Assembly: GCF_003201775.1 (NCBI RefSeq)
Contig: NZ_QJJZ01000002.1
Location: 248,001 to 312,000 of the forward strand
Length of the DNA stretch: 64,000 nt
DNA from: Arenibacter sp. ARW7G5Y1
GTDB lineage: Bacteria; Bacteroidota; Bacteroidia; Flavobacteriales; Flavobacteriaceae
Direction: 5' to 3'
In this document: positions 17,077 through 60,424 of the stretch, one piece after another
How positions within the stretch are numbered: position 1 is the first letter of the stretch
Layout of the letters: the number at the start of each line of letters is the position of its first letter
Position numbers and translations under genes: made by a program
The notes under the pieces: generated by a model
The model's input: only the letters and a program-made list of their open reading frames with translations
Database searches by the model: none
What the model was told of the DNA's origin: nothing

Positions 17077-17082
17077 TAATTT

Positions 17083-18057: not shown

Positions 18058-18087
18058 TATTTTGGATTAATTATTAAATATTTAATT

Positions 18088-35567: not shown

Positions 35568-36152
35568 ATGTTAGATATATTTGGGAAAAACATCTTTGAA
35601 AACAAAAAAAAATTGGAAACCCTTGTTAAAAAGGAGCCCGAATTTGTTTTTGAAACCATTTTCCGTTTGTATTATGATAAATTGTTTCAAATAGCTAAGA
35701 TATACCTAAACAATAAGGAAGATGCCGAGGAGATAGTCCAAAATGTATTTTTAAAACTTTGGGATAAATTAAATCTGTTGACCGGGATCAATAATATTAA
35801 TAGTTATCTATTTACGCTTACCAAGAATGCATGTTTAAATTTCTTAAAGCATCGGAAAATTAGATCAAATTTCCATAACAATAAGAAGGAGGCCATTCAG
35901 ATCCAATATCTTCGAAGCGAGACAGAATCACTTTTGTTGGAAAATGAACTTCAAACTAAAATTGATGAGGGCATTGAAGCACTACCTGAAAAGTGTAAAT
36001 TAATTTTTATCCAAAGTAGATTTGAAGGACTAAAAAATGCCGAAATCGCAGCGATTCACGGGATTTCCAAAAAAACTGTGGATAATCAAATTTCCAAGGG
36101 AATAAAACACTTAAGACTCCACCTAAAGGAATTCACACTTCTTTTTTTATAA
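35568..36152 (+). CDS. ECF-type RNA polymerase sigma factor (FecI-like)
   Basis: A 194-residue sigma-70 family member with regions 2 and 4 only. Region 2 is visible in FRLYYDKLFQIAKIYLNN and AEEIVQNVFLKLWDK; region 4 in ALPEKCKLIFIQSRFEGLKN and AEIAAIHGISKKTVDNQIS. It is followed after 63 bp by a FecR anti-sigma gene and then by a SusC with an STN domain. This is the standard trans-envelope circuit in which ligand-bound SusC frees the sigma factor. It should drive the locus 37532-47331. Confidence 0.92.
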   Translation: MLDIFGKNIFENKKKLETLVKKEPEFVFETIFRLYYDKLFQIAKIYLNNKEDAEEIVQNVFLKLWDKLNLLTGINNINSYLFTLTKNACLNFLKHRKIRSNFHNNKKEAIQIQYLRSETESLLLENELQTKIDEGIEALPEKCKLIFIQSRFEGLKNAEIAAIHGISKKTVDNQISKGIKHLRLHLKEFTLLFL

Positions 36153-36215
36153 TTTTTCATACTCTTCAGTAGGTATATTTCTTTTCTAGATTGTCTTTAT
36201 TATATAGTCAATTGT

Positions 36216-37361
36216 ATGGATAGGAATTTACTTGTAAAATATTTGGAAGGTTTAACCTCCCCAGAAGAAACTGCAAAAGTTGAGGATTGGATTTTATACT
36301 CAGTTGACAACGCACAGGTCTTCAATAGGATTAAAACCAATTTGGCCATAGGTTCGCTGGGGAAGACTCCATCGGAAATGGAAAAAGATGAGACTTTTCA
36401 AAATTTTAAGGCTGTACATCTCAAAGAAGGAAAAGCTATTTCATCTAAATGGACTCCACTTTTACGTTATGCGGCTGTAGTGGTTTTAGCACTGATGACA
36501 ACTTTTTTAATTTATCATGGTCTTGGGCAAAAAGAACAATTAATTGTACCTGATAATGCCATAACCCTAAAACAGGAAGATGGATCTATTAAAGTTATAG
36601 ATGAAATTGGAAATAATAATGTGCAAGATGGTACGGGGAACATTATCGCCAAGCAAATTGGGAAAAGTTTAGTGTATTCAAAAGATGCTGCCAATAGTAA
36701 GTTGGAGTATAGTACTCTTACCGTACCATATGGAAAAACGTTTGAAGTGGCCCTGTCCGATGGAACCTATGTACACCTAAATTCAGGTTCCTCACTTAGA
36801 TATCCGATCCAATTTATAGAGGGGATGAAGAGACAGGTTTTTGTCCAAGGGGAAGCATTTTTTGATGTTGCCAAGGATTCCCTCCATCCTTTTCTGGTAT
36901 CTGCGGCTGAGTTGAATGTGAGGGTCTTGGGCACCACATTCAATGTAAGTGCATATAAGGAAGACGAGGTAACGGAAGTAGTACTTGTTGAAGGTTCAGT
37001 TAGCCTGTTTTCGAACAGCAATGGGGATGACCCTATTAAGAACACTATGATGGAACCTGGTTATAAAGCTTCTTTTGAAAAAATACAGGAAGGGATTAAG
37101 TTAACACCTGTCACGACAGATGTCTATACTTCTTGGAGACAGGGCGAACTTGCTTTTAGGAATATGACCCTTGAAAATATCCTTAAAAAATTGGAAAGAC
37201 ATTACAATATTAACATAATCAATATGAATGGGTCAGTATCTAAAAAACGCTTCAATGCCAATTTTGGCAATGAGCCTATACTATCCAATGTTCTAGAAGA
37301 TTTAAAACGAAATTATGGAATTGATTATAAAATTGAACGTAACATAATAACCATCTATTAA
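36216..37361 (+). CDS. FecR-family anti-sigma factor
   Basis: A 381-residue inner-membrane protein. The cytoplasmic N-terminal part (1-~85) would hold the ECF sigma factor. A single membrane helix lies at about 87-108 (YAAVVVLALMTTFLIYHGL). The periplasmic part carries the FecR domain (TVPYGKTFEVALSDGTYVHL, GEAFFDVAKD, VLGTTFNVSAY, VEGSV) and a C-terminal DUF4974-like domain (LAFRNMTLENILKKLERHYN). It receives the signal from the STN domain of the SusC protein encoded next. Confidence 0.92.
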   Translation: MDRNLLVKYLEGLTSPEETAKVEDWILYSVDNAQVFNRIKTNLAIGSLGKTPSEMEKDETFQNFKAVHLKEGKAISSKWTPLLRYAAVVVLALMTTFLIYHGLGQKEQLIVPDNAITLKQEDGSIKVIDEIGNNNVQDGTGNIIAKQIGKSLVYSKDAANSKLEYSTLTVPYGKTFEVALSDGTYVHLNSGSSLRYPIQFIEGMKRQVFVQGEAFFDVAKDSLHPFLVSAAELNVRVLGTTFNVSAYKEDEVTEVVLVEGSVSLFSNSNGDDPIKNTMMEPGYKASFEKIQEGIKLTPVTTDVYTSWRQGELAFRNMTLENILKKLERHYNINIINMNGSVSKKRFNANFGNEPILSNVLEDLKRNYGIDYKIERNIITIY

Positions 37362-37448
37362 CCAAAAATAACCAAAGCGCCAATGAAATAAAAAATGTCA
37401 CAAACATATAAATCATGATTTTAATAGTTCTCTAATTAAGAACAAAAA

Positions 37449-37480
37449 AAATCGGAAAATGCGTCAACATTTCCCGATTT
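37449..37480 (+). promoter_or_regulatory. Hairpin with CGTCAA loop before susC (copy 1)
   Basis: Arms AAATCGGAAAATG and CATTTCCCGATTT pair over 13 bp with one mismatch, around the loop CGTCAA. It ends 51 nt before the susC ATG. On the minus strand it is followed by an eight-base T run, so it may also terminate antisense transcripts. A similar hairpin precedes the susC at 49621. Confidence 0.45.
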
Positions 37481-37531
37481 CAAAATCGTGATTAAACAAA
37501 GAGTTTATCACTAAAAAAACATAACAAAAGT

Positions 37532-40500
37532 ATGAAAAAATTATATAGGCTAAAACATGGCCCTATTTTACTATTGAAATTAGACTTAAAGATGAAGCTA
37601 AGTGTTCTGTTGTTTATTGCTACGTTTTTTGCCCTCCAGGCAAATACTTCTTACGGGCAGTTGACCAAAATCACTTTGAATTTAAAAAATGTCTCGATAG
37701 AGCAATTGCTTGATGAGATTGAGAAAAATACTGAATTTAGATTTGTTTATAAGATAGAGGATATCGATTTAAATAGGATAGTATCGGTTAAAGCGAAAGA
37801 GGAAAAGATAACCAAAATACTACATGGAGTGTTTTTGCAGGACAATATTGAATTTGACATTAGAGATCGTCTTGTGTATCTGGTAGAACAAAAGTTATCT
37901 CCTATTAAATCAAAAAAAGATGTGGTCCATCTACAAAAACAATATAAGATTTCAGGTATGGTCTCCGATGAAAACGGGCTGCCATTATCTGGAGCCAGCA
38001 TCTTGGAAAAAGGGACAGTAAATGGAACACAGGCCGATTTTGATGGGAATTTTTCAATAGACGTAGAGAATGAAGATGCAATACTGGTTATTTCCTACAT
38101 AGGTTTTGCTACTATAGAGCTGAATACGAATGGGCAGTCCTATTTTAAAATTGCATTAAAAGAAAGTGCTTCAGGTTTGGAAGAGGTAATTGTGGTAGGC
38201 TACGGTACCCAAAGGAAATCGGATATTACGGGGGCCGTATCACAAGTTAAAGGCGCTGATTTTGTCGAAGAAAGGCCAGTTATATCTGTTGGACAGGCAT
38301 TGCAAGGAGTTGTTCCAGGACTTACTGTAAGCAAATCCAATGGAATCCCTGGTGAAGGATATTCTTTTAATATTCGGGGGTACAACTCCATAAACGGTGG
38401 GTCGCCATTGGTATTGGTAGATGGTTCTGAATTGGATCCAAATCTAATACCTCCATCAGACATTGAGAGTGTTACCGTCTTAAAAGATGCTTCTTCAGCT
38501 GCGATTTACGGGGCCAGGGCTGCTTTTGGGGTTATTCTTATCACTACTAAATCCGGGAAAAAAAATACCAAGACTCAATTTACATATACCAATATTCTGT
38601 CTAGTACAAGACCAACCACTTTTCCGGATAAGGTTGACCCTGTAACACAGGTTAAGGTGGGAGGTATTCAATGGGAAAATGCAGGTAGAACCCCTGGCTG
38701 GTATTGGGGCAGAAATGTGGATACTTGGGCGGGGCTTTACGAGTCCCCGGATTATGTCCCAAATTCCATTCCTGTCATAAATGATATAGCATATCCCTTA
38801 GGAGATAATAACAATATGATCGAATATATGGTTGAACCAGGATTGACACTTAATCATAATTTATCTGTTTCCGGTGGATCAAATAATACGACTTATTTTT
38901 TAAGTGCGGGTTTAATGAATCAAAACGGCGTGCTGGTACTGGATAAGGACAGATACAATAGAAAAAACGTTATGACAAAGGTTGATTCCGAAATCAATAA
39001 TTGGCTAAGTATCGGGGCTACCCTGGGTTTTACTAGAGGAATACAGAATATGCCCTATATTCCAAATAATGCCTCATATATGTATAGTGTTTCCTATTTA
39101 AGACCTACATTCTGGCTAACCGGAACAGATGAGGTATCGGGTGCTCCATGGGGCTTTTCACCTGCTATGGTAGATTTGGGTGCAAAAAACACATACGAAA
39201 CGAAAAATACCAATGTTCAATTAAGGGCGTCAGTAAAACCTTTTGAAGGGATGAACATTGAAGCAAATTATACTCATAGGAGTATTAGCCAAAATGATAG
39301 TTACCATGTAAACAAATACGCAATGGCCAATCCTACGGATGGTCCAGGTATCGTTTACTATTACAGGAACGACCCAAATAGCCTTCGGAAAACGGCAGGG
39401 TTCAACAACTATGACAATCTATATTTTACTGGGGAATACCAAAAAAAAATCTTGGACCATAATTTTAAATTAATGGTAGGATATAGTCAAGAAGAAAGCA
39501 GTGAGAACTCTTTCTTTGCCCAGAGACAAGGGTTAATTTCAGATGAGGTACCGGCCTTAAGCTTAGCTATAGGAAATTCTAGCGTAGGAGATGGCACCAC
39601 TGAATGGGCTACACGTTCTGGATTGTATAGGCTTAATTACGATTATAAGGGAAAGTATCTTTTGGAAACCCTTGGGCGATATGATGGTTCGTCTAGATTC
39701 GAAAGGGATAACCGATTTATTTTTTCTCCTTCGGCCTCTGTTGGTTGGGTAGTTTCTAGGGAGTCTTTTATGGAAAGTACCAACACTTGGCTGAATTTCT
39801 TAAAGATAAGGGCCTCATATGGTACCCAGGGTAATCAACAAGTTGGTGCCTATTCCTACATCCCATCCATGAATACAGGTACGGCCAACTGGATTTTGAA
39901 TGGCGAAAGACCCCTCTATACTGGACCGGGCGGGCTTGTAAGTGATTACTATACTTGGGAAAAAGTGAACTCCATCAATTTTGGTATGGACCTAGCTTTC
40001 TTTAAGAATAAACTACAAACAACTCTTGAGGTCTATGAAAGGGAAACCATTGGAATGTTGACAGCAGGGCAAGTACTGCCCGATCTCTTGGGAACGTCAG
40101 TGCCCAATGAGAATTCGGCAGATCTAAAAGTGAAAGGCTGGGAACTTAGTTTGAATTGGGCGGATAGGGTCTCCGATAAGTTTTCATATTCTACCAATGT
40201 AATACTCTACGACGACAAGGCCACCATTACCAGCTATGAAAATCCAACAGGATTTTTGGGAAGCCTTTATGAAGGCAAGGAAGTTGGAGAGATTTGGGGA
40301 TATGAAACCGATAGATTGTTCCAGGAGACAGATTTTGAGAGCGTGGATTCGGAACGCCAATATGTTCCAGGGATACCTACACAGAATTTTATCTTTGGGA
40401 ATAGGATACCCTATCCCGGAGATGTCAAATATAAAGATCTTAACAATGACGGGGTAGTAGATAGAGGTGAATACACTTTGGAAGATCACGGAGACCTTAC

Positions 40501-40984
40501 CATTATTGGAAATTCACGTTCAAGATACCAATATGGTATTAAACTTGGTGCGGCCTATAACAATATAGACTTTTCCATATTCCTGCAAGGTGTAGCTAAA
40601 AAGGATTATTGGACCGGGGGTGCCTTTGGGTTTACCGCAGGTTCCCAATATGAATCTATCCTTTCACATACCCTGGATTATTGGACGCCCGAAAATACGG
40701 ATGCTTTTTATCCAAGGCCTGACGATCGTAGTTATAATAAGCAGACCCAGACCAGGTATTTATTGAATGCAGCCTATATGCGGCTTAAGAATATTAGAAT
40801 TGGTTATTCCTTGCCCAAGGATGTGTTGAGTAAGATAGGGATAGAATCAATAAAAATATATTTTAGCGGCGAAAACCTAATGTTGTTTTCAAAATTGCCA
40901 CAAGGTATGGACCCGGAATTGGGCGCATCACATACCTTTCCACTGGCAAAAGACTTGTCTTTTGGAACAACCATTTCTTTTTAG
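37532..40984 (+). CDS. SusC-family TonB-dependent receptor with STN signalling domain
   Basis: An 1150-residue outer-membrane receptor. After the signal peptide (ending TSYGQ) comes an STN domain at about 50-125 (NVSIEQLLDEIEKNTEFRFV), which contacts FecR and gives signal transduction. Then a carboxypeptidase-like domain (NGLPLSGASILEKGTVNGTQ), the EEVIVVGYG signature and the plug (GQALQGVVPGLTV, PLVLVDG, VLKDASSAAIYGARAAFGV). The barrel ends in GTTISF. It pairs with the SusD that follows; transport is energised by TonB. The ligand is unknown, perhaps a phosphorylated glycan. Confidence 0.95.
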   Translation: MKKLYRLKHGPILLLKLDLKMKLSVLLFIATFFALQANTSYGQLTKITLNLKNVSIEQLLDEIEKNTEFRFVYKIEDIDLNRIVSVKAKEEKITKILHGVFLQDNIEFDIRDRLVYLVEQKLSPIKSKKDVVHLQKQYKISGMVSDENGLPLSGASILEKGTVNGTQADFDGNFSIDVENEDAILVISYIGFATIELNTNGQSYFKIALKESASGLEEVIVVGYGTQRKSDITGAVSQVKGADFVEERPVISVGQALQGVVPGLTVSKSNGIPGEGYSFNIRGYNSINGGSPLVLVDGSELDPNLIPPSDIESVTVLKDASSAAIYGARAAFGVILITTKSGKKNTKTQFTYTNILSSTRPTTFPDKVDPVTQVKVGGIQWENAGRTPGWYWGRNVDTWAGLYESPDYVPNSIPVINDIAYPLGDNNNMIEYMVEPGLTLNHNLSVSGGSNNTTYFLSAGLMNQNGVLVLDKDRYNRKNVMTKVDSEINNWLSIGATLGFTRGIQNMPYIPNNASYMYSVSYLRPTFWLTGTDEVSGAPWGFSPAMVDLGAKNTYETKNTNVQLRASVKPFEGMNIEANYTHRSISQNDSYHVNKYAMANPTDGPGIVYYYRNDPNSLRKTAGFNNYDNLYFTGEYQKKILDHNFKLMVGYSQEESSENSFFAQRQGLISDEVPALSLAIGNSSVGDGTTEWATRSGLYRLNYDYKGKYLLETLGRYDGSSRFERDNRFIFSPSASVGWVVSRESFMESTNTWLNFLKIRASYGTQGNQQVGAYSYIPSMNTGTANWILNGERPLYTGPGGLVSDYYTWEKVNSINFGMDLAFFKNKLQTTLEVYERETIGMLTAGQVLPDLLGTSVPNENSADLKVKGWELSLNWADRVSDKFSYSTNVILYDDKATITSYENPTGFLGSLYEGKEVGEIWGYETDRLFQETDFESVDSERQYVPGIPTQNFIFGNRIPYPGDVKYKDLNNDGVVDRGEYTLEDHGDLTIIGNSRSRYQYGIKLGAAYNNIDFSIFLQGVAKKDYWTGGAFGFTAGSQYESILSHTLDYWTPENTDAFYPRPDDRSYNKQTQTRYLLNAAYMRLKNIRIGYSLPKDVLSKIGIESIKIYFSGENLMLFSKLPQGMDPELGASHTFPLAKDLSFGTTISF

Positions 40985-41009
40985 TAAAGATTATAAAATT
41001 ATAAGAACC

Positions 41010-42779
41010 ATGAAGAATCTATATAAAATAGTACTAATAGGATTCATACTATGTATGGTATCCTGCAACGACGATTTCTTGGAAAAAATCCCACAGGATC
41101 AGATAACCAATGAGAATTACTGGCAAACAGATAGTGATTTTCAAACCTATTCACTGGGACTTTACAACTTTTACGGCTATGGAGTGGGAAATTCTTATGG
41201 TATTGCCGTTAATTCGGATGAAGTAGTTCAGGCAAATCAAGTCCAAAGTAGCCGAATTTTTGACCGAATTACCATACCGAACTCGGGAGGTGGATGGTCA
41301 TGGAGTACTTTGCGGGCCATAAATATAATGATCCGGGAAGCTCAAAATTCTGATTTGGAAACAGAGGTTAAGAATCACTGGGAAGGTGTTGGAAGGTTAC
41401 TTCGAGCCCGTGAATATTTCTCCAAGGTTAAAAATTTTGGCGATGTCCCTTGGATAGATCATGAATTGGGTACTGCGAGTCCTGAACTGTATGAAACCCA
41501 AGATTCCAGAACCATGGTTATGGGACATGTTTTGGAAGATTTGAATTTTGCAGTACAGAACATTAGATCTGAAGCTGGGGACAACCTGATAAATCGCGAT
41601 GTTGCACTTGCCATTAAATCCGAGATATGTCTCTTCGAGGGAACCTTTAGAAAATACCATGATGAGTTAGGCTTAACTGATGCTCCTTTATGGTTTGCAC
41701 AAAGCGTTTCGGCATCTGAAACCCTAATGGAAGAGGGAAACTATTCCCTGTCTCCTGATTTTAGGGATATATACTCGTCCATAAACTTGGGAGATAATCC
41801 CGAAGTCATACTATATAAACATTATGAGCCAGGAGTAATCGTGAACATTCAGGCGAGGATGATGGGTCTTAGGGATTATTTTGGGGCCACAAAGGATGCT
41901 GTGGAAAGTTTTCTATGTTCAGACGGCTTACCCTTCGGTGTAAGTGATTTACATGCGAAAGCCAAGGCAGGTCTTCCAGAATTCGTAATGGAAGAATTTG
42001 AGAATAGGGATCCGCGTATGGGCAAGACCTTAGTCATACCATACGATGAGAATATGGTTCCCCAAAATGAACCGGCCATATTCAATAGCAGTACAGGAAC
42101 AACACCTTCATATTCCCCTGCATTTATAGGAGAGTCAGGGATATCAAATCCAACTGGGTATCCCTTGTACAAGTGGTGGTCTACCGACACACCTGTAGAC
42201 GATGTCAATGGATTTTTGGACGCCCCTCTTTATAGCTTCAATAAAATTTTATTGAACTATGCCGAAGCAAAGGCAGAGTTGGGGGAAGTGGATGATGCTG
42301 TACTGGATAAAAGTATAAATCTGTTAAGGTCTAGGGTGGGGATGCCCAGATTAACGTTAGCTTTCGTCGATAGTTTTGACGACCCAAAAAAGGCTGTTGA
42401 TGCTCCAGAAATATCCAACCTCCTGTGGGAAATAAGACGGGAACGGCAAGTTGAATTAATGTTAGAAGGATCTAGGTTCGATGATATCCTAAGATGGAAA
42501 AAGGCCAGTTATTTTGGAAAACCATTTGTTGGAGCATTTGTAGATCTCAACGACCGGCCGGCTTTCGAATACAATACAGACGGTTCCAATAAGGCAACGA
42601 TTGTTTTGGGTGATAGGAATGGAAATCCCTTGCCTGCTGACGCAAAGGAGGGATATATACTGCCTTATTTGGAAAGACAACCAAATTGGACGGATGATGA
42701 TATAAAACTGTATTACTCACCCATAAATTCGGAGGCACTTACCATTAATCCCAATTTAAAGCAATCCCCTGGTTGGTAA
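41010..42779 (+). CDS. SusD/RagB-family lipoprotein
   Basis: Surface glycan-binding partner of the SusC above. The ATG at 41010 is preferred, giving a lipoprotein signal MKNLYKIVLIGFILCMVSC; an in-frame ATG at 40962 lies inside susC. The SusD fold is seen in NDDFLEKIPQDQITNENYW, GRLLRAREYFSKVKNFGDVP, and a late WEIRRERQVELMLEGSRFDD. About 590 residues, normal size. A GTTAGT-rich stretch and a terminator follow. Confidence 0.94.
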   Translation: MKNLYKIVLIGFILCMVSCNDDFLEKIPQDQITNENYWQTDSDFQTYSLGLYNFYGYGVGNSYGIAVNSDEVVQANQVQSSRIFDRITIPNSGGGWSWSTLRAINIMIREAQNSDLETEVKNHWEGVGRLLRAREYFSKVKNFGDVPWIDHELGTASPELYETQDSRTMVMGHVLEDLNFAVQNIRSEAGDNLINRDVALAIKSEICLFEGTFRKYHDELGLTDAPLWFAQSVSASETLMEEGNYSLSPDFRDIYSSINLGDNPEVILYKHYEPGVIVNIQARMMGLRDYFGATKDAVESFLCSDGLPFGVSDLHAKAKAGLPEFVMEEFENRDPRMGKTLVIPYDENMVPQNEPAIFNSSTGTTPSYSPAFIGESGISNPTGYPLYKWWSTDTPVDDVNGFLDAPLYSFNKILLNYAEAKAELGEVDDAVLDKSINLLRSRVGMPRLTLAFVDSFDDPKKAVDAPEISNLLWEIRRERQVELMLEGSRFDDILRWKKASYFGKPFVGAFVDLNDRPAFEYNTDGSNKATIVLGDRNGNPLPADAKEGYILPYLERQPNWTDDDIKLYYSPINSEALTINPNLKQSPGW

Positions 42780-42813
42780 CATGGGATCTTATTAAAATTT
42801 TACATTAAGTATT

Positions 42814-42840
42814 ATTAGTTAGTTAATGTGAGTTAGTTGT
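42814..42840 (+). promoter_or_regulatory. GTTAGT-rich element in the susD 3' UTR (copy 2)
   Basis: The stretch contains TTAGTTAGTTAATG and GAGTTAGTTG. It sits between the susD stop and the terminator at 42849, as in the other two loci. Confidence 0.4.
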
Positions 42841-42848
42841 TTAGTACG

Positions 42849-42878
42849 GATAGGGCATAGAAATATGCTCTATCTTTT
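42849..42878 (+). terminator. Intrinsic terminator after the second susCD pair
   Basis: An 11-bp stem GATAGGGCATA / TATGCTCTATC (one G-T pair) with a GAAA tetraloop and a TTTT tail. It separates susCD from the phosphoesterase genes. Confidence 0.75.
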
Positions 42879-42900
42879 AATAATAAAAACGATTACTAAA

Positions 42901-43809
42901 ATGAAACATATATTTAAATTACTGTTGTTTATTATTTTTACCTTAAATGTAAAAGCGCAAAATACAATTAAAGTAATTACATATAATGTACTTGAAGGGC
43001 TTGGCAATGAAAAAGATTATGGAAAAGATAGACATAAGCATGGTGTAAAATGGATCACGGAACAAAATGCAGATATAATCGCATTGCAAGAATTATATAG
43101 TAGTGAGGAGAAACTCTCAAACGATGCCAAAAAATGGGGACATAAGTATTATGCCAAGTCTGGTCCTATTGGATTAACATCCAGAGCTCCAATAAAAGTC
43201 AAAAAAATATATTCCAATAAAAATCTAAGAAATTCTGTTTTGCAATGTGAAACTTACGGTATTAATTTTTTTGTTATTCATCTAAGTCCTGCCGATTGGA
43301 AATATCGTTTACAGGAAACCAAAATTATTAAGGGAATTATAGATTCTGTGAAGCAAACAACAGATAAATATGTATTATTGGGGGATTTTAATGCGCATTC
43401 TCCTTTTGATGCAGAGCTTTATAATCAGAATCCTGAGTTAATCAAGAAGTATCAAAAAGGCGATAAAAATAATAAATTAAAAGGTTATCCCGATCGGAAC
43501 CTACTCGGTGACTACCTTGACTACAGTGTAATGTCTTCATTTTATGCCTTCCCTTTAGTAGATGTTACAGAACGTCTTGTGCCATGGTATCAACGTTTTA
43601 CATTTCCAACTCCAATTTTAATAGATGTGTGGCGTACTGCCGGTAATATAGGACGTACTCCAGAGCGAATCGATTATATTTTAACAAGTTTGCCTATGAG
43701 TTTATTGTGCAAAAGTGTGAAGATACATAATGGGGAGGAAAACGATTATATTTCTGATCATTATCCATTAGAAGCGATTTTTGAATTGGATGTTTCGAAA
43801 GGATTATGA
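42901..43809 (+). CDS. Exported endonuclease/exonuclease/phosphatase (EEP) family enzyme, copy 1
   Basis: A 302-residue secreted phosphoesterase. The ATG at 42901 gives a clean signal peptide (MKHIFKLLLFIIFTLNVKAQ); an in-frame ATG at 42865 overlaps the terminator. DNase-I-fold residues are present: Asn in ITYNVLEGL, Glu in IALQELYS, DxN in LLGDFNAHS, and the terminal SDHYPLEA. The family includes sphingomyelinases, inositol-phosphate phosphatases and nucleases, so it cuts phosphate esters or diesters. A paralogue is at 54642, and both are followed by a metallophosphoesterase. The substrate is not known; location in a SusCD locus suggests a glycan or lipid head group. Confidence 0.85.
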   Translation: MKHIFKLLLFIIFTLNVKAQNTIKVITYNVLEGLGNEKDYGKDRHKHGVKWITEQNADIIALQELYSSEEKLSNDAKKWGHKYYAKSGPIGLTSRAPIKVKKIYSNKNLRNSVLQCETYGINFFVIHLSPADWKYRLQETKIIKGIIDSVKQTTDKYVLLGDFNAHSPFDAELYNQNPELIKKYQKGDKNNKLKGYPDRNLLGDYLDYSVMSSFYAFPLVDVTERLVPWYQRFTFPTPILIDVWRTAGNIGRTPERIDYILTSLPMSLLCKSVKIHNGEENDYISDHYPLEAIFELDVSKGL

Positions 43810-43836
43810 TATACCTATTTTTTTTAAAGAAGGGAA

Positions 43837-44742: not shown

Positions 44743-45033
44743 ATAATTAAATTAAGTTGCATTAGACTTTTTGCCAACATGTTTTAGGGAAGGCTACAAT
44801 TGTTTGAATAGATAATTATGAAATGGAGTATTGATGGTGAAGCTTTTATTGAAGAGAAAAGATTTTATTCAAGTTGATATCCCATAGCCCTATACTGATA
44901 CAAGAAGTGTATGAAAAATAAATAATTACGAACCCTGGCAACACAGGTAGATTAAAAAGGTATGTACTAAAAAAAGAATTTAGGATAATAATATTAAGGA
45001 TAAATAAGCGAAATATACTTTAAACATAGAAGA

Positions 45034-47580: not shown

Positions 47581-47625
47581 AGAGGTTGAAATCATTGCAA
47601 GAGGAGTGGTTAAACAACCTCTTTT
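47581..47625 (+). terminator. Possible terminator of the GH95-like gene
   Basis: Arms AGAGGTTG / CAACCTCT pair perfectly across a 26-nt loop, followed by TTT. It overlaps the 3' end of the convergent sigma gene. The long loop makes it uncertain. Confidence 0.35.
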
Positions 47626-48203: not shown

Positions 48204-48329
48204 AACAAAGCTTTGCCAGTTGGGTTAAATAGTCTTGTAAACTTATAAAAATATTTTTTAAAAAAAATCAAAATAAATTGTGGGTGGTATTAAATGTGAA
48301 ACGTAATATATATAAACAGAAGTGAAGAA

Positions 48330-49490: not shown

Positions 49491-49528
49491 ATATGTCTAT
49501 GAAGTAAAAAGGATCCTAAAAAAAAGGA

Positions 49529-49564
49529 GGATAAAGTTTACCCGTCAAAGTAAAAACCTTATCC
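49529..49564 (+). promoter_or_regulatory. Hairpin with CGTCAA in its loop before susC (copy 2)
   Basis: Two stacked stems, GGATAA/TTATCC and TTTAC/GTAAA, enclose the loop CCGTCAAA. It ends 57 nt before the preferred susC ATG at 49621. Position and loop recall the hairpin at 37449. Confidence 0.4.
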
Positions 49565-49620
49565 CCTCAGAAGTATCACCAATTAATTAAATGTTTAACC
49601 AACTGATAACACACAAATTT

Positions 49621-52989: not shown

Positions 52990-52999
52990 ATTCTGAATC

Positions 53000-54496
53000 A
53001 TGAAAAAATTTAATATATACATACTAATTGGATTATTGGGAATTTTATCTATGTCCTGTGAGGATTTCCTTGACAAGCAACCACTGGATCAGATATCGAG
53101 TGAGACTTTTTGGAAAGATGAATCGGATGCGGATATGGCTCTTGCAGGGGTATATTCTCAAATGAGAAGTAATACCCTAAGTTGGGATAGAAATTTTTAT
53201 GATGCCTTGTCCGACAATTCCTTTGCACGAAATGCCGAAGGAGGAAATGTGTCGCCATTAGCTCAGGGGATTATTGAACCAAGTTCAGGTGGGCTCGTAA
53301 GCAGTGTTTATAATGCAGCATTTACAGGTATTTCACGTTGCAACATTTTTTTGCAAAATATTGACAATGTAGAGATGGAAGAAACCAAAAAAAACATCTA
53401 TAAGGGAGAGGTTTTGTTCCTTAGGGCCTATTTATATTTTACTTTAACCCAATTTTATGGAGGAGTCCCACTATATATAACTCCCCCAACAATAGAAGAA
53501 TCAAAGGTAAAACAATCAACAAAGGAAACGGTAATCAATCAGGTGTTGGCCGACTTGGATGAGGCAATCGGATATTTACCCGATGATGTATACGATGGCC
53601 ATGCAGTTAAGGGCTCTGCTTTATCTTTAAAAGCCAAAATACTGTTACATCAAGAAAAATGGGTTGAAGCAGCTGAAACGGCTAATTTGGTTATCCAGTC
53701 CGGCACATTTAGTTTATCCAGTTCCTACCCAGATCTATTTTTAGCGGCAGGTCAAGAAAATAATCCGGAAATAATATTCTCAACAAAATTTTTAAATCCG
53801 GATTATAACGCATGGTATGGCCCAGATATTCGAATTGGCTGGTGGTCATCTTTAAATCCCTTTCAAAATTTGGTAGATGAATATGAATGTACTGACGGCT
53901 TGTCCATTTCAGAATCACCTTTATACAATCCAGTAGATCCTCGCGAAAACAGAGATCCTCGATTAAGCCATACAATTCGGTTTTGGAATAATGGTATTGA
54001 AGAATTAATTGGAGGAAGCTATGATCCAGGTGGTGTTACAGAGACTGGCTATTTCTATGTAAAATATGTTGACCCAAATAATGCACCATTTGATTATTCA
54101 ATTAAAAGTGAGCAGGATTTTATTCATCTTCGTTATGCGGATGTATTATTAATGTACGCTGAGGCAAAAAATGAAGCCAGTGGTCCTGACGCAACCGTGT
54201 ATAATGCTATTAATAATATACGTGACCGGGTAGATATGCCTCCTTTGCCTGCAGATTTAACAAAGGATCAAATGCGTGAACGTATTAGGCACGAGAGTAG
54301 AGTTGAACTAGCAATGGAGGGGCACCGATATTTTGATTTAAAACGGTGGAAGACTATAGAAAATATAATACCGGCAATAACAGATCCCGGGGGTAACCAA
54401 AGACAATTTGATCCAGCGAAGCATTATCTCTTTCCTTTCCCGCAAAGTGAAATAGATCGTAACGAAAATTTGGATCAAAATCCTGGATATAATTAA
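53000..54496 (+). CDS. SusD/RagB-family lipoprotein
   Basis: A 498-residue surface lipoprotein (signal ending LSMSC) that partners the SusC ten bases upstream. SusD marks: EDFLDKQPLDQISSETFWKD, GEVLFLRAYLYFTLTQFYGG, HLRYADVLLMYAEAKNE and the late RIRHESRVELAMEGHRYFDL. It is slightly shorter than the other two SusD proteins in the window. A GTTAGT-rich stretch and a terminator follow. Confidence 0.95.
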   Translation: MKKFNIYILIGLLGILSMSCEDFLDKQPLDQISSETFWKDESDADMALAGVYSQMRSNTLSWDRNFYDALSDNSFARNAEGGNVSPLAQGIIEPSSGGLVSSVYNAAFTGISRCNIFLQNIDNVEMEETKKNIYKGEVLFLRAYLYFTLTQFYGGVPLYITPPTIEESKVKQSTKETVINQVLADLDEAIGYLPDDVYDGHAVKGSALSLKAKILLHQEKWVEAAETANLVIQSGTFSLSSSYPDLFLAAGQENNPEIIFSTKFLNPDYNAWYGPDIRIGWWSSLNPFQNLVDEYECTDGLSISESPLYNPVDPRENRDPRLSHTIRFWNNGIEELIGGSYDPGGVTETGYFYVKYVDPNNAPFDYSIKSEQDFIHLRYADVLLMYAEAKNEASGPDATVYNAINNIRDRVDMPPLPADLTKDQMRERIRHESRVELAMEGHRYFDLKRWKTIENIIPAITDPGGNQRQFDPAKHYLFPFPQSEIDRNENLDQNPGYN

Positions 54497-54510
54497 AGTA
54501 TAAAAATGTA

Positions 54511-54530
54511 TTGAGTTAGTAGTTAGTTAA
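54511..54530 (+). promoter_or_regulatory. GTTAGT-rich element in the susD 3' UTR (copy 3)
   Basis: Reads TTGAGTTAGTAGTTAGTTAA, very close to the copy at 8097 (TTGAGTTAGTAATTTGTTAG). It lies between the susD stop and the terminator at 54543. Confidence 0.4.
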
Positions 54531-54542
54531 TTATTGTTTGTT

Positions 54543-54574
54543 AAAAAGAACCACTGGCAATGGTGGTTCTTTTT
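54543..54574 (+). terminator. Intrinsic terminator after the third susCD pair
   Basis: A 12-bp stem AAAAAGAACCAC / GTGGTTCTTTTT with an 8-nt loop; the right arm supplies the T run. It is nearly symmetrical, so it may act on both strands. Confidence 0.8.
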
Positions 54575-54641
54575 GTTTTTATCAAAGGATAACATACCTA
54601 TATATATTCTGAATCCGAATTAATACTTTATGTAAGCTTAA

Positions 54642-55535
54642 ATGAAACCGAAAAACATAAAATTCAGCTATTTAATACTTCTAAACATTTTTGCCTATCT
54701 ACTACCTGTGGTCCTATTAATGGGCTGTAAACCAAAACATTTATCTATTCAACCTAATCATGACTTAAAGGTTGTCACCTATAATGTCTGGGTAGGTTAT
54801 CAAGATAGAAAGCATCCAAGGTTACCATGCTTGGAAATTGGTATCGAAAGGAAATCATTGATTTATGAATGGTTAAAAGAGCAAGAGGCTGATGTGGTGG
54901 TATTTCAAGAACTCATGGATTATTCAGCTGAAAAATTAAAAAATGAATCAAAATTCTGGGATCACAACTATGCGGTGACCCTTAGAGATCAAGGAATGGC
55001 TATTGGAATTAGTTCAAGATATCCAATTAAGGTTAAGGAAATATTGACTGAGGGAATGCAACATGGTTTAATATATTGTACAATTAACGGTGTCGATATA
55101 ATTGCGACACACCTTTGGCCGAGTTTTGATCATACAATACTGGATGAAGTAAATATCGTTAAGGAAAGAGTTGATTCATCATTAACGTTGGGACATCCAC
55201 TGTTATTGTTAGGCGATTTTAATGCATTTTCTCCCGAAGATGAACTTTTCATTAGCGATGAAACAATGGATTTGTACAAGCTATGGGGTTGGGGATTGGT
55301 AGATGGTCGGCCTAATTATCAAGTGATTCAAGCGCTTTTAAATAGTGGTATTAAGGATGTATGTACAAAATTCAGGAAGAATGATAAGGCCAGAAAACAG
55401 CGATACGATTTTATTTTCGCATCACCTAATTTATGGAATGAATGCACAGATGCCAATCATTTTCAAGAAGCTGAATTTTTAAGATTTTCAGATCATTATC
55501 CAGTAACAGCTACTTTTTCCAATATAAAGAATTAA
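54642..55535 (+). CDS. EEP-family phosphoesterase lipoprotein, copy 2
   Basis: A 297-residue secreted enzyme with a lipoprotein signal (VVLLMGC). DNase-I-fold motifs: VVTYNVWVG, VVFQELMD, THLWP, LLGDFNAFS and RFSDHYPVTA. It is a paralogue of the gene at 42901 but has a lipid anchor instead of a cleaved signal. It shares the same position after susCD and before a metallophosphoesterase. A phosphodiesterase acting on a lipid or glycan head group is inferred; nuclease activity is possible. Confidence 0.85.
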   Translation: MKPKNIKFSYLILLNIFAYLLPVVLLMGCKPKHLSIQPNHDLKVVTYNVWVGYQDRKHPRLPCLEIGIERKSLIYEWLKEQEADVVVFQELMDYSAEKLKNESKFWDHNYAVTLRDQGMAIGISSRYPIKVKEILTEGMQHGLIYCTINGVDIIATHLWPSFDHTILDEVNIVKERVDSSLTLGHPLLLLGDFNAFSPEDELFISDETMDLYKLWGWGLVDGRPNYQVIQALLNSGIKDVCTKFRKNDKARKQRYDFIFASPNLWNECTDANHFQEAEFLRFSDHYPVTATFSNIKN

Positions 55536-55662
55536 AGTTATTAATAGAAAATGAAAACAGAACTAATATCAACTGTTGTTCAAGTTAAAAGTTAGTTCCT
55601 GACTTCTAATAAACTGTTGAAAATCAACGCACAACATTAGCATCTAAATTCCAAAGAAAATT

Positions 55663-56568
55663 ATGAATTTTAAAAAACAAGTAAGTGTTATTCATTTTGG
55701 ATTGATTCTTATCATTTCTAGCTGTACTTCAAAATCTAATAATAGTACACAATTAGCATCTGAATTCTCGTTTGGTATTATTGCTGATTGCCAATTTTCT
55801 GATTATCCAGCCAATGGTACAAGAGAATATGCCATGTCAGATGATAAACTTGAGGAATGTGTAACCCATTTGAACACTATGGATTTGGAATATACCATTC
55901 ACGTGGGTGACTTTATAGACCGTAATTATGAAAGTTTTGATGTGGTAGTCCCTATTTATAATAAATTAAAAATGCCAAAATACCATGTTTTGGGAAATCA
56001 TGATTTTGTAGTTCCTGGTGACAAGCGATCCAATGTTTACAAAAAGATGGGAATGCCATCAAGATATTACGAGTTCAAAATCAAAGATTGGCGATTTGTT
56101 GTATTGGATGGTAATGACATAAGTTTTCATGCCTCTAATGAGGGTAGTAAAGATTACCAATTTGCTGAAAACTATTACAAAACCAACAAAATTAACTCCC
56201 CTAAATGGAATGGAGCCGTTGGAGAATCCCAGAAAAACTGGTTAATTTCAGTTTTGGAAAACGCCACAAAAAATCAGGAAAAGGTAATTTTATTCTGTCA
56301 CTTTCCTGTATTTCCTGAAAATGTACATAACCTATGGAATGCTGATGAGCTCGTGGAAATTATTGAAAACTATGATTGCGTTAAGGCCTATATAAATGGT
56401 CACAATCACGAGGGGAATTTCGGTTATAAAAAGGGGGTACATTATTTAACGATGAAAGGTATGGTTGAAACCAAAGAAACGGCTTATGGGATCATTACAT
56501 TAACAGATAAATACATACAAATTGCAGGATACGGAAGAGAAGGAAATAAAAAGCTTCAAATAAAATGA
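55663..56568 (+). CDS. Metallophosphoesterase lipoprotein, copy 2
   Basis: A 301-residue calcineurin-like phosphoesterase, same length as its paralogue at 43837, with a lipoprotein signal (LIISSC). Complete metal motifs: FGIIADCQF, VGDFIDRNYE, LGNHDF, FCHFPVF and NGHNHEG. Like copy 1 it follows an EEP gene, and here an alkaline phosphatase comes 22 bp after it. It carries the 83-bp tract identical to copy 1. Confidence 0.88.
   Translation: MNFKKQVSVIHFGLILIISSCTSKSNNSTQLASEFSFGIIADCQFSDYPANGTREYAMSDDKLEECVTHLNTMDLEYTIHVGDFIDRNYESFDVVVPIYNKLKMPKYHVLGNHDFVVPGDKRSNVYKKMGMPSRYYEFKIKDWRFVVLDGNDISFHASNEGSKDYQFAENYYKTNKINSPKWNGAVGESQKNWLISVLENATKNQEKVILFCHFPVFPENVHNLWNADELVEIIENYDCVKAYINGHNHEGNFGYKKGVHYLTMKGMVETKETAYGIITLTDKYIQIAGYGREGNKKLQIK
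55925..56007 (+). repeat. 83-bp identical tract shared by the two metallophosphoesterase genes (copy 2)
   Basis: Second copy of the tract at 44096-44178; the coding frame and position within the gene are the same. Confidence 0.8.
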
Positions 56569-56590
56569 TTATTAAAAGTAAGAAAGTAAC

Positions 56591-57691
56591 ATGAAACATC
56601 CTTTATTAGATATTATAGCTTTATCGCTTTTGGTATTATTTATAAGTTGTAAGTCTCAACGACCATTAGTTAATTCAGAAAAATCAATAGCACCTAAAAA
56701 TGTGATATTGCTAATTGGAGACGGTATGGGACTCTCCCAAATTTCAAGTAGTTTTTATTTTGGAAACACCAACCCTAATTTTGAAAGGTTTAAGCATATT
56801 GGGTTGATAAAAACCTCCTCACAAAATGGTCTAATTACTGATTCGGCAGCAGGGGCTACCGCTTTCTCAGCAGGTATTAAAACCTACAATGGAGCAATCG
56901 GGGTGGATAGTGACACTTTAGCTGTTGAATTATTAACCGAAATAGCTGCCAAAAAGTTTATTTCTACAGGTGTTGTAAGTACCTCCTCGGTCACCCATGC
57001 CACGCCTGCATCATTTTACGCCCATGTTAGATTCAGGAGCCAAGAAGAAGAAATTGCAGCACAATTACCCAGATCAAGTATCGATTTTATTGCTGGTGCC
57101 GGTACGGATTACTTCTTTAAGCGAAAAGATCACATTAACCTAAGCACCATGTTTTCAAATCAAGGTTTTATTCTGGACACATTGGCCTTAAATAGACCTA
57201 AAGACTTTAGTTTAGAGCATAAAATTGCGTTTTTATTGGCACCCAACCACATGCCCAAAATGAGTGAGGGGAGAGGTCATTTTCTTTCTAAGGCTACACA
57301 GTTAGGGCTTGAATATTTATCACAAAATGAAAATGGATTTTTTTTGATGGTTGAAGGTTCCCAAATTGATTGGGGAGGGCACAATAATGATTCCAGCTAT
57401 ATAATAGAAGAAGTAAGGGATTTTGATAGGGTTATTGGGGAAGCACTTGATTATGCCCAAAAGGAGGGCAACACCCTTGTTATAGTTACAGCCGATCATG
57501 AAACAGGAGGATACACTCTAGCGTCGGATAAAGGGAACTATAACAAAATAAAAGGTTCGTTTTCAACAACAGGACATTCGGCCACTTTGATTCCAGTATT
57601 TGCCTTTGGTCCAGGATCTGAAAATTTTCAGGGCATATATGAAAACAATGCTATTTTCCATAAAATTCAAAATTCAGTAAACTGGAAGTAG
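56591..57691 (+). CDS. Alkaline phosphatase lipoprotein
   Basis: A 366-residue exported phosphomonoesterase (signal ending LFISC). Motifs of the alkaline phosphatase superfamily: metal Asp in LIGDGMGLSQIS, the nucleophile serine in ITDSAAGATAF, VEGSQIDWGGHNND, the ADHETGG metal site and a late His in TTGHSATLIPVF. It is shorter than the usual 450-500 residue enzymes but no core motif is missing. It would release inorganic phosphate from products of the EEP and metallophosphoesterase enzymes encoded just upstream. Confidence 0.9.
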   Translation: MKHPLLDIIALSLLVLFISCKSQRPLVNSEKSIAPKNVILLIGDGMGLSQISSSFYFGNTNPNFERFKHIGLIKTSSQNGLITDSAAGATAFSAGIKTYNGAIGVDSDTLAVELLTEIAAKKFISTGVVSTSSVTHATPASFYAHVRFRSQEEEIAAQLPRSSIDFIAGAGTDYFFKRKDHINLSTMFSNQGFILDTLALNRPKDFSLEHKIAFLLAPNHMPKMSEGRGHFLSKATQLGLEYLSQNENGFFLMVEGSQIDWGGHNNDSSYIIEEVRDFDRVIGEALDYAQKEGNTLVIVTADHETGGYTLASDKGNYNKIKGSFSTTGHSATLIPVFAFGPGSENFQGIYENNAIFHKIQNSVNWK

Positions 57692-57799
57692 CGTTATAAT
57701 CTAGCCTTCAATTTCATAATAACAAATCAAATTAAGGGGCAAGACTAGCAATTTAGGGTCTTCCAGCTTAAATTTTAAAAACACTTTATTATTAAAACA

Positions 57800-60424
57800 A
57801 TGATTTTCAAATATTTATCGGCTACTTTATTGACATTATGTTTATTCTCCACAACATATTCTCAAACTACGGGAACAAAGGATTTGAAATATATAGGCAT
57901 GCCAGTAGGAGGAATTGGTGCAGGACAAGTATATCTCGGTGGAGATGGTCAGCTGTGGTATTGGGATATTTTTAATATTCAACGAATCCAACCAGGTGGA
58001 CCAGGTGATAAATTTTATATCAACCCAATGACACAGGACCATCAGTTTAATCAGGGCTTTGCGATTCGTATTAAAAAACTATTACCTTCATTCAGCACAC
58101 CAATTGTGAAACCTCTGAATAACAATGGTTTTTCTGAAATAAAATTTAAAGGAGAATACCCTATCGGTAAAATAAGCTTTAAAGAGCCTAACTTTCCAGT
58201 TTCCGTAAAATTAAAGGCCTATACCCCTTTTATACCTACGGACCACAAATCGTCAGATTTTCCAGCCATTGTTATGGAATATACACTAAGCAATGATTCC
58301 CGCACTGAAGTTACGGTGGAGCTTTTTGGTTGGCTTCAAAATATGGCGAATTTTAAAATGGCCAATGCAGCGGACGGAACTCATATCAATACTATTGCAA
58401 GACATGAAAATACCATACAATTGATTACTTCTTCGAAGGTTTCTGCTAAAAACAAAGATTTGCCTGATTATGGTAATATGGCTTTGACCTTAATGGAAGG
58501 TGAAAATGCTTGGGGAACACCAAAAACTTCAGATGACTTAGAATTCAATCTTCCAGAAGTTTCTGGGACTAATGAGCATTCAGCTGAAGCGGCCTTGGGA
58601 CAAATTTTAACTGGGGCTATTGGTAAGGAATTAAAGTTGAAACCAGACGAAAGGAAAACACTTACGTTTATCGTTTCTTGGTATTTTCCTAATGTCCATA
58701 GACAGGAAAGCGGACTTAATCCATTAAAAAACAAAGAAAATTTAAGACGGAATTATAGTAAAAAGTTTAGTTCTGCAGGGCATGTTGCCCATTCGATAAT
58801 AGCTAAAAAAGAATACTATCTCAAAACTACAAAAGTTTGGAACAACACTTGGTACAACAGTTCTTTGCCGACATGGTTTTTGGATAGAACCTTTGCTAAC
58901 ACCAGTACTCTAGCTACATCATCTTGCTATATACTTGATGATCTTACTGATGACCAGGACAATGAAGGTCGATTTTATACCATGGAAGGAGTGTATTTGG
59001 GTTATGGAACGTGCACTCATGTTTTTCACTACGAACAAGCATTGGGACGAGTATTCCCTAATCTTGCTAGACAATTAAGAACACAAATAGATTATGGATT
59101 ATCATTCAAATCAAACGGCATTATTCAATATAGAGGAGAGTTGGATCAAGGTAAGCATTTAGACTACTACGATGGTAGCGGATATGCCGTAGATGGGCAG
59201 GCCGGTACTATATTAAGGGCATATAGAGAACATACTACTTCAGTAAATAGTAACTTTTTAAAGGAATACTGGCCTAAAATTAAAAAAAGTATTGAATTCA
59301 TGATAAATCATGATGCCTCTGAAACAGGAAGACCTGATGGAATATTGGAAGGTGGTCAATATAATACGCTGGACAGAATGTGGTATGGTAAAATTGCTTG
59401 GACCAGCAGTATGTACAATGCCGCGGTACAGGCAGGTGCGATTATGGCGAATGAGATAGGTGACAAGCGTTTTGCCAATATGTGCAATCGAATTGTAAAA
59501 TCTGGCAAAAAAAATATGACCCATTTATTATTCAACGGAGAATACTTTATAAACATTTTAGATCCTGAAAATCGGAGAGCTCCAAATACCTATATTGGTT
59601 GCCATATTGATCAAATATTAGGGCAGTCGTGGACGATCCAAGCTGGCTTACCTAGAATTCTGCCGAAGAAAGAATCAGTTAGTGCCCTCAAATCAATATA
59701 TAAGTATAATTTTCAGGAAGATATTGGAGCATATATCGATACGGCTTCGATTAAAAATGTACGTTTCTATGCCCTTCCAGGAGAGTCGGGAACTGTAATT
59801 TGCTCCTTTCCTAAAGGTGGCATTGAAAAAGTCTCAGGGAGAGTTAATAATGATTGGGAGAAACTATCCATTGGTTATTATAGCGAATCCATGACGGGGT
59901 TTACATATCAGGCAGCAGCACACATGATCGGTGAAGGTTTGGTTGAAGAAGGAATGACTATGATAAAAGCCATCAATGATAGGTATGCTCCGTCTAAAAG
60001 AAACCCTTATAATGAAGTAGAATACGGCAATCATTATACAAGAGCAATGTCAAGTTATGGAGCATTTGTGGCGGCAACCGGTTTTAAGTATCATGGACCA
60101 AAATCCTTTCTAAGTTTTGATCCAAAGGTAAATCCGGATAATTTCAAATCAGCGTTTATTACAGCCCAAGGTTGGGGCAGTTTTGTTCAACAGCGAATTG
60201 AAGGAAAACAGTTAAATTCAATAACATTATCCTTTGGAACTCTGGGGTTATCAAGCCTTGAGTTGTTTTTGGAAAAAAAAATAAATAAAGAGGTGATTAT
60301 AACGATGAATGGAAAACCTATCGAATTTAATTCAAATTTAAAAGAACGAAAATTAACACTAAAATTTAAAAAAATAACTTTATCTAAGGGAGATAAATTA
60401 AGGATTCATGTTTTTTCTGAATAA
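57800..60424 (+). CDS. GH116-like glycoside hydrolase (glucosylceramidase/beta-glucosidase type)
   Basis: An 874-residue exported protein (signal ending TTYSQ). The N-terminal beta-sandwich begins with the GH116 mark [20 protein letters not shown]. The catalytic (alpha/alpha)6 part has [20 protein letters not shown], where the acid/base Asp region of GH116 is expected, and a [11 protein letters not shown] helix. The family includes bacterial beta-glucosidases/xylosidases and human GBA2, a non-lysosomal glucosylceramidase. With phosphodiesterase and phosphatase genes directly upstream, a phosphoglycolipid or phosphorylated beta-glycan substrate is plausible. It ends the third locus. Confidence 0.78.

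Follow-up and report, generated by a model that had tools for sequence, protein, structure and literature searches.

Two adjacent gene clusters in which phosphoesterases and glycosidases accompany a SusC/SusD import system are the subject of this analysis. They lie in a stretch of 64,000 nucleotides of Arenibacter sp. ARW7G5Y1 (positions 248001-312000 of contig C2 in an assembly of 5.73 Mb in 46 contigs), which is called the window hereafter and of whose 45 listed open reading frames (ORFs) 40 proteins are covered by family calls. Locus 1 (35568-47331) has all its genes on the forward strand: an ECF sigma factor (35568-36152; Sigma70_r2 5.7e-12, Sigma70_r4_2 3.9e-13), a FecR anti-sigma factor (36216-37361; FecR 1.7e-15, FecR_C 2.4e-17), the TonB-linked outer-membrane receptor SusC1 (37532-40984; TIGR04056, 829 bits), the lipoprotein SusD1 (40962-42779; SusD_RagB 1.1e-38), the predicted EEP-fold phosphodiesterase or phosphatase EEP1, whose start looks like a signal peptide by eye (42865-43809; Exo_endo_phos 2.6e-12), the calcineurin-like metallophosphoesterase (MPE) MPE1 (43837-44742; Metallophos 4.2e-15) and a glycosidase of family GH139 (45034-47331), the last two with a lipoprotein-like start. 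Locus 2 (47610-60424) opens on the reverse strand with an ECF sigma factor (47610-48203; Sigma70_r4_2 4.6e-12), divergent from the FecR gene (48330-49490; FecR 2.5e-18), which is followed, likewise on the forward strand, by the TonB-linked outer-membrane receptor SusC2 (49591-52989; Plug 7.7e-22), the lipoprotein SusD2 (53000-54496; SusD_RagB 2.5e-50), the EEP-fold enzyme EEP2 (54642-55535; Exo_endo_phos 8.7e-14; lipoprotein-like start, MGC, by eye), the calcineurin-like MPE2 (55663-56568; Metallophos 3.7e-15), the alkaline phosphatase AlkP (56591-57691; Alk_phosphatase 5.0e-74), both of these with a lipoprotein-like start, and an ExoMA2-like enzyme of family GH116, subfamily 4 (57800-60424).

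The genes that an earlier note on this DNA had named are present and in order, with their Pfam families above cut-off, the two loci comprising 15 proteins in total, and the observation itself is confirmed: the loci share ECF sigma factor, FecR, SusC, SusD, EEP and MPE, and one of them adds an alkaline phosphatase. The STN domain that the note ascribed to the SusC proteins is found in SusC1 as a match below the Pfam cut-off (24.0 against 28.4 bits) and gives no match in SusC2. The description of the loci as twins holds for the gene order and not for the sequences, the identity between the loci being 32% for SusC, 25% for SusD, 29% for EEP and 60% for MPE; the MPE alone is close, and a tandem duplication of one locus is ruled out. 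Each locus has adjacent SusC and SusD genes together with a carbohydrate-active enzyme (GH139 or GH116), the hallmarks of a polysaccharide utilisation locus (PUL). No sulfatase was called by Pfam among the 15 proteins; the weak match of AlkP to the Sulfatase model (26.1 bits, cut-off 25) is expected because of their common superfamily.

The glycosidase of locus 1, which contains DUF5703_N and Glyco_hydro_95_cat domains and had been called GH95-like, turns out to be a GH139 enzyme, since it matches PDB 9hmb (3.1e-130) and 9hyq (7.5e-102) over residues 32-764 and keeps the catalytic residues. Both GH139 structures come from one paper, which deals with BT0984 of the rhamnogalacturonan II (RG-II) system and describes the family as inverting 2-O-methyl-alpha-L-fucosidases with an Asn proposed as the base (PMC12282258). 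In a pairwise alignment, in which the numbering of the chain is offset by one residue from that of the paper, the base Asn412 corresponds to Asn390, the acid Glu561 to Glu533 and Gln411 to Gln389, and Trp403 (Trp382), Trp683 (Trp643), Asn639 (Asn603), Glu641 (Glu605) and Asp723 (Asp685) are kept as well; the position of Asn729 is occupied by Asp, the residue that GH95 has there according to the same paper. The protein is therefore predicted, from its sequence, to be a 2-O-methyl-alpha-L-fucosidase. Of the Trp triad associated with action on RG-II chain B, two members (Trp403 and Trp490) are kept, and the third, Trp162, pairs with an Arg (by eye, in one pairwise alignment), so that the enzyme probably acts on something else than RG-II chain B. 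A structure prediction from the single sequence was unusable (mean pLDDT 32.7), and no report of 2-O-methyl fucose in marine polysaccharides was found among the literature matches listed.

In the case of the GH116 enzyme of locus 2, the match to the exo-beta-D-arabinofuranosidase ExoMA2 reaches 248.6 bits (PDB 8ic6, 1.1e-72), against 66.7 bits for the best glucosylceramidase. ExoMA2 is described as having the nucleophile Glu431 and the acid/base Asp557, and as being set apart from beta-glucosidase by His446 and Arg483 (PMC10509167). All four residues are kept, as Glu396, Asp525, His407 and Arg445 respectively, and five of the six GH116 relatives checked keep them too, the sixth (L130) having Thr opposite the Arg. 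Where TxGH116, which stands for the glucosylceramidases or beta-glucosidases of GH116 subfamily 1, has His507 and Asp452, the window enzyme has Arg445 and His407, as placed via the ExoMA2 positions. The enzyme is thus a predicted exo-beta-D-arabinofuranosidase or related furanosidase, and the link to glucosylceramidase, from which the earlier note had drawn support for a sphingolipid substrate, falls because of these ExoMA2-type residues and the far better ExoMA2 match.

As to the phosphoesterases, Asn41, Glu76, His139, Asp174, Asn176, Asp270, Asp298 and His299 (EEP1 numbering) are invariant in 20 aligned EEP relatives, and EEP2 keeps the same conserved positions. We take these residues to be the catalytic ones (Asn, Glu, His, Asp-x-Asn, Asp-His), and together with the Exo_endo_phos match they place both proteins in the EEP superfamily. 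Lipoproteins of the Bacteroidota are exported to the surface when acidic residues follow the lipid-anchored Cys. A simple lipobox pattern scan, in whose output the Cys of SusD2 and of EEP2 was read by eye, finds acidic residues closely following the presumed lipid-anchor Cys in SusD1 (CNDDFLEK, with NDD directly behind the Cys) and SusD2 (CEDFLDK), and none in the first five places in MPE1 (CRSIIV), MPE2 (CTSKSN) and AlkP (CKSQRP), nor an acidic residue in the corresponding places of EEP2 (CKPKHL) and GH139 (CRTAKS). By the export rule, this suggests that the SusD proteins stand at the surface and MPE1, MPE2, AlkP, EEP2 and GH139 on the periplasmic side.

Relatives of EEP1 occur in 20 of 248 related genomes (E up to 1e-30) and in 6 of 296 sampled from the whole phylum (E up to 1e-25), the own genome being counted in each. 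The clearest counterpart of locus 1, in a genome from another family of the class (L083), is a row of ECF, FecR, SusC, SusD and EEP genes in which the last three are 65%, 73% and 64% identical to SusC1, SusD1 and EEP1, and in which no MPE, AlkP, GH139 or GH116 was detected on its 20 kb. In L077, a SusC2-like gene, a SusD2-like gene and an EEP gene are adjacent, and its SusC pairs with SusC2 in the tree (support 100/100, 45% identity). The EEP gene stands directly behind SusC/SusD in both L083 and L077, which points to a ligand-specific role. A richer set is found in genome G307 (L091 and L076). Here ECF, FecR, SusC and SusD come first, and a few ORFs further on lie an MPE with a beta-propeller, a phosphodiesterase of PF01663, four EEPs, two GH116 enzymes (one of them 66% identical to that of the window), a sulfatase and further MPEs. 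At the corresponding place in genome G302 (L074, 10550-10918), a GH116 piece of 122 residues lies just ahead of a full GH116 gene and is probably a decayed copy, since G307 has two full genes there.

Other relatives of EEP1 stand with GH29-like, GH20 and SusCD genes (L073, L080) or with a sulfatase and an MPE of 78% identity (L015). On contig C21 of the own genome, an EEP1 relative, a GH139, a sulfatase, a GH29 and an enolase-family gene lie within about 12 kb, the EEP1 relative being no more than about 9 kb from the GH139, the sulfatase and the GH29, and this GH139 keeps all the residues checked except that at Asn729. A sulfatase above 100 bits is present at 17 of the 29 EEP1-family places examined (all 28 outside the own genome and C21); nine of these belong to a single orthologous locus of the genus, to which C21 corresponds in the own genome. 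Among 149 genomes, GH116 occurs at nine places outside the window, four of them falling in three EEP loci; two (L128, L129) adjoin a protein resembling the PF01663 phosphodiesterase of L044, a locus described below, and two (L131, L132) lie in loci with a sulfatase. In L131 (G302) a GH139 adjoins the GH116 behind ECF, FecR, SusC2-like and SusD genes, and the positions of Asn639 and Glu641 are not aligned as Asn and Glu in this GH139.

A link that was not visible to the earlier note leads to the catabolism of 2-aminoethylphosphonate. In genome G779, phnA, phnY and phnW, all above NCBIfam equivalog cut-offs (PhnW via TIGR03301 and not TIGR02326), form a row with genes for an MFS transporter, a flavin adenine dinucleotide (FAD) oxidase, an MPE, an EEP of 533 residues and another EEP. 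In G329, the distance from phnW to an EEP and an MPE is about 9 kb. In G302, which is of the same genus as the own genome, phnY (truncated at the end of the stretch), phnW and genes for an MFS transporter, an FAD oxidase and a helix-turn-helix (HTH) protein stand in a row, and two genes past this cluster follow ECF, FecR, SusC and SusD and then a set of EEP, GH116 and MPE, the locus being joined from two stretches whose overlap is identical over the 101 bases compared. In the own genome, phnA-phnY-phnW stand at L044 (C10:119500-139400), with MFS transporters, the PF01663 phosphodiesterase, an FAD oxidase, an HTH gene and an MPE that closely matches the one in G779 (619 bits). The family calls for the 40 window proteins include no phn gene, and the own genome's only phnW match is on contig C10. 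Of the 248 related genomes, 16 have phnW, 20 an EEP1 relative and 14 both; among the 230 outside the genus, phnW is found in three, all of them among the seven with an EEP1 relative (Fisher p 1.7e-5, kinship ignored). Each of these three belongs to a separate genus, and in one, G317, phnW and EEP are on different contigs. The count of phn seed matches near EEP genes (3 of 15 loci against 1 of 15 controls) was given no weight, as its loose threshold admits other aminotransferases and dehydrogenases.

The model we propose starts from the enzyme families, the kept catalytic residues and the several similar related loci, all of which are read from the sequences, and we grant it somewhat less than an even chance: the two loci would be distinct, separately regulated PULs that import oligosaccharides of a complex glycan bearing phosphodiester- or phosphonoester-linked substituents. 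The triggering step would be the sensing of the transported ligand by the ECF/FecR pair of each locus, which would switch that locus on. The decorated oligosaccharides would enter the periplasm via SusC/SusD, where the EEP would cut the ester and either free a small head group or leave a phosphomonoester; the remainder would be removed by the metallophosphoesterase and, in locus 2, also by the alkaline phosphatase. The glycan thus unblocked would be trimmed by GH139 in locus 1 (2-O-methyl-L-fucose) and by the ExoMA2-like GH116 in locus 2 (beta-D-arabinofuranose or a similar furanose), and the pathway as a whole would yield a fucose-type sugar, a pentose and the head group. We infer this chemistry from gene families and neighbours, and with it the substrate, the order in which the enzymes act, their export and location in the periplasm, and the kind of head group. 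The window also contains, at 14-30 kb, a cluster of the sugar-oxidation type with two SSF transporters, so that the released sugars could be used. A pyrroloquinoline quinone (PQQ)-dependent dehydrogenase of the methanol/ethanol type with a cytochrome c domain (61333-63426), 0.9 kb past the GH116 gene, could act on an alcohol freed from the substrate. The phosphoglycan interpretation of the earlier note is in sum partly supported: phosphoesterases and glycosidases do stand together in one SusCD system, and the argument from glucosylceramidase to sphingolipids is not supported.

Could the loci belong to an as yet undescribed class of PULs for phosphonoglycans, that is for sugars with 2-aminoethylphosphonate esters, possibly of marine invertebrate or protist glycans? 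The EEP and the metallophosphoesterase would then free 2-aminoethylphosphonate from the polymer for the phnWYA pathway, and GH139 and GH116 would trim what is left. The strongest hint is the phnY-phnW cluster that lies two genes ahead of ECF/FecR/SusC/SusD and the EEP/GH116/MPE set in G302, along with the phnA-phnY-phnW-MPE-EEP row in G779. We nevertheless hold this narrower version to be rather doubtful, and two genomes with rich EEP/GH116 loci, G307 and G303, give no phnW match, so that 2-aminoethylphosphonate cannot be the head group in every case.

Several further observations weigh against the proposed model. As to the co-occurrence of EEP, MPE and SusCD, for which the earlier note proposed a survey, SusC/SusD are present at 10 of the 29 EEP1-family places (three on an adjoining stretch) and an MPE at 8 (one weak). 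In L130, the GH116 follows ECF, FecR, SusC2-like and SusD2-like genes, and no phosphoesterase was detected. The sole activity reported for GH139 in the BT0984 paper is on 2-O-methylfucose of plant rhamnogalacturonan II, wider activities being expected there (PMC12282258). The control comparisons as a whole are weak or negative. When 15 representative EEP loci were compared with 15 blind windows of the same genomes by pairwise seeds within 8 kb, an MPE was near the EEP in 6 against 1 (p 0.04), another EEP in 5 against 1 (p 0.08) and SusD in 5 against 2; SusC was found in 4 against 5, so that this small test shows no enrichment of it close to the EEP, and GH116 in 1 against 1, one control window (L094) reaching into another GH116 locus. 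A Pfam tally of neighbouring ORFs gave EEP in 7 of 115 against at most 2 of 107 in the controls (p 0.10) and MPE in 6 against at most 2 (p 0.16), neither significant alone, and sulfatase in 9 against 4; the tally left out two of 117 ORFs for their size, as well as ORFs above 1200 residues, cut ends and frames with internal stops, and the control tally comprised the top 25 families, hence the "at most".

The tree had suggested that the SusC1 clade might consist of EEP-specific transporters, but it had been built from sequences collected near EEP genes. When the search was run forwards, from 20 SusC1 homologues at the top of the match list, leaving out SusC1 itself, four places already seen and G301:C37 (where the downstream side is the contig end), an EEP was found by profile near only 3 of 20 (L111, L117, L122), with one more by a weak pairwise match alone (L127), and sulfatases near 14 of 20. 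The idea of EEP-specific transporters is thereby rejected; substituted glycans of any kind seem to be what this clade serves, and locus 1, in which no sulfatase was called, may be the phospho counterpart of its sulfatase-bearing relatives.

Two further points against the model lie in the phosphoesterases themselves. The nearest PDB relatives of the EEP profile are nucleases of the ExoIII/APE1 type, with some unnamed EEPs, and the profile of MPE1/MPE2 relatives is nearest to zebrafish 2nxf (4.2e-43, profile positions 28-295), which is ADPRM, a nucleotide-type diphosphatase; purple acid phosphatases (PAPs) and SMPDL3A are further away. Both points would fit a scavenging of nucleic acids or nucleotides, in which the EEP would be a secreted nuclease, the MPE a nucleotide diphosphatase and AlkP the last enzyme, SusCD would import oligonucleotides and the glycosidases would be bystanders; nucleic acids were indeed suggested as the target of SusCD loci with phosphodiesterases by Lapebie et al. 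2019 (PMC6499787). We judge this unlikely: EEP1 stays far below the cut-offs of the exodeoxyribonuclease III equivalogs TIGR00195 (36.4 against 182.55 bits) and TIGR00633 (35.6 against 99.05 bits) and EEP2 scores lower still, the family calls for the 40 window proteins include neither a nucleoside hydrolase nor a named nucleoside transporter, and the EEP relatives neighbour glycosidases, sulfatases and phosphonate genes.

A general scavenging of phosphate, in which phosphoesterases housed in glycan loci would win phosphate from any imported phosphoester and no special phosphoglycan would be involved, also appears improbable to us. It would account for the alkaline phosphatase of locus 2 and for the many different places occupied by MPE relatives: of 33 MPE places outside the window, 2 have SusC/SusD by seed sequences (L015, L047), which again counts against the proposed model, two further ones (L027, L028) resemble glycan loci, and most of the others have neighbours without annotation. 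Many adjoin dnaK, sdaA or cbb3-oxidase assembly genes by eye, and the MPE was discarded as a locus marker. A relative near dnaK- and/or sdaA-like genes (by eye) recurs in many related genomes and in the own one (L009-L013, L020-L022, L024, L025), and a contig scan with two peptide patterns of the MPE gave one named locus, L008, in a metagenome-assembled genome of the Bacteroidetes, without SusCD. Against phosphate scavenging stand the ECF/FecR pair that each locus has of its own and the place of the EEP right behind SusC/SusD in L083 and L077.

A substrate among the phospho- or phosphono-glycosphingolipid head groups, with the EEP acting like a sphingomyelinase C and the GH116 as a glucosylceramidase, is less probable still, and for the GH116 of locus 2 this reading was ruled out by the subsite residues, which are of the ExoMA2 and not the beta-glucosidase type. 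Moreover, no sphingomyelinase is found among the 50 PDB matches of the EEP profile at E up to 1e-5, and the 40 window proteins gave no ceramidase-like call. What speaks for it comes from elsewhere in the genome, where the lead is kept: at L014 (C26:6000-25900; genes at 4092-18721), SusC, SusD, two EEPs and a purple acid phosphatase are followed by two proteins that match the neutral ceramidase family, with a DUF7133/HEAT/cytochrome protein between them, and this is a candidate sphingophospholipid locus. On contig C8 (L046, L058), another SusC gene has in its neighbourhood a PAP-like phosphoesterase and three proteins with a weak resemblance to these ceramidase-like ones. A use of actinobacterial D-arabinan or lipoarabinomannan, in which the EEP would remove phosphoinositol caps and the GH116 release beta-D-arabinofuranose, is a very remote prospect, for all that the GH116 keeps the four tested ExoMA2 residues, as GH139 does not fit and neither DUF4185 (GH183) nor DUF2961 (GH172) gives a match in the own genome, control genomes being equally silent.

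Some further features of the sequences were noted in passing. An RraA-like protein in the window is spread over two overlapping ORFs (14323-14990; model positions 2-82 and 75-152), which suggests a frameshift or a sequencing error. Large proteins of 782 and 812 residues (11896-14244 and 23195-25633) have no confident Pfam match, and the second has a relative behind SusCD in L092. Large proteins at L042 (1333-4713) and L073 (1988-6115) begin with residues that look Cas9-like.

The role proposed here for SusCD loci with an EEP would bear on the fate of marine phosphonates. Polysaccharide esters of methylphosphonate and 2-hydroxyethylphosphonate are reported to make up as much as 20% of the phosphorus in the high-molecular-weight dissolved organic matter of the sea, where 2-aminoethylphosphonate is described as the most abundant of the phosphonates (PMC9381506); invertebrate and protist glycans carry 2-aminoethylphosphonate and phosphocholine (PMC6994554, PMC8699351). 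For the ester bond to the polysaccharide, the relevant passage of Sosa et al. 2017 only postulates alkaline-phosphatase-like enzymes (PMC5649143). Among the open-licence papers listed, none dealt with a SusCD locus with an EEP for phospho- or phosphono-glycans, and none was found on DUF5703 or on a sphingomyelinase for ceramide aminoethylphosphonate; for aminoethylphosphonate together with polysaccharide utilisation a single paper, on root Bacteroidota, came up. If the proposed model is true, a SusCD system that couples an EEP and metallophosphoesterases to glycosidases would name candidate enzymes for the ester-cleaving step and a route would emerge by which Bacteroidota use phospho- or phosphono-glycans. 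A GH139 outside the RG-II setting would likewise widen the known targets of this family.

In conclusion, the two loci share parts with several known systems and coincide with none of those compared. The window MPEs resemble the ADPRM-type dimetal phosphatase 2nxf over nearly the full length of the profile, including the initial D-x-Q, and differ from it in their lipoprotein-like start and their place in a SusCD locus. With aminoethylphosphonate catabolism the connection consists in the EEP and MPE relatives in or beside phnW-phnY-phnA clusters of related genomes and in the own cluster on C10; the window has no phn gene called. Locus 1 has in common with the RG-II system the family of BT0984 and its catalytic Gln/Asn, Glu, Trp and Asp; no other RG-II enzyme was recognised in the window loci, and the replacements at Asn729 and Trp162 set the enzyme apart. 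The GH116 shares nucleophile, acid/base, His446 and Arg483 with ExoMA2 (PDB 8IC6, 8IC7), and differs by a signal-peptide-like start, which ExoMA2 as described lacks, and by its phosphoesterase neighbours (PMC10509167). Finally, the earlier note considered the combination of genes unusual; SusCD loci with phosphodiesterases are already published, 576 of 14,713 SusCD loci devoid of known carbohydrate-active enzymes, sulfatases and peptidases being reported to carry phosphodiesterase genes of PF00149 or PF01663 (Lapebie et al. 2019, PMC6499787). The window loci resemble these in uniting SusC/SusD with such enzymes; the published ones were counted without carbohydrate-active enzymes, whereas those described here add an EEP and a GH139 or GH116.

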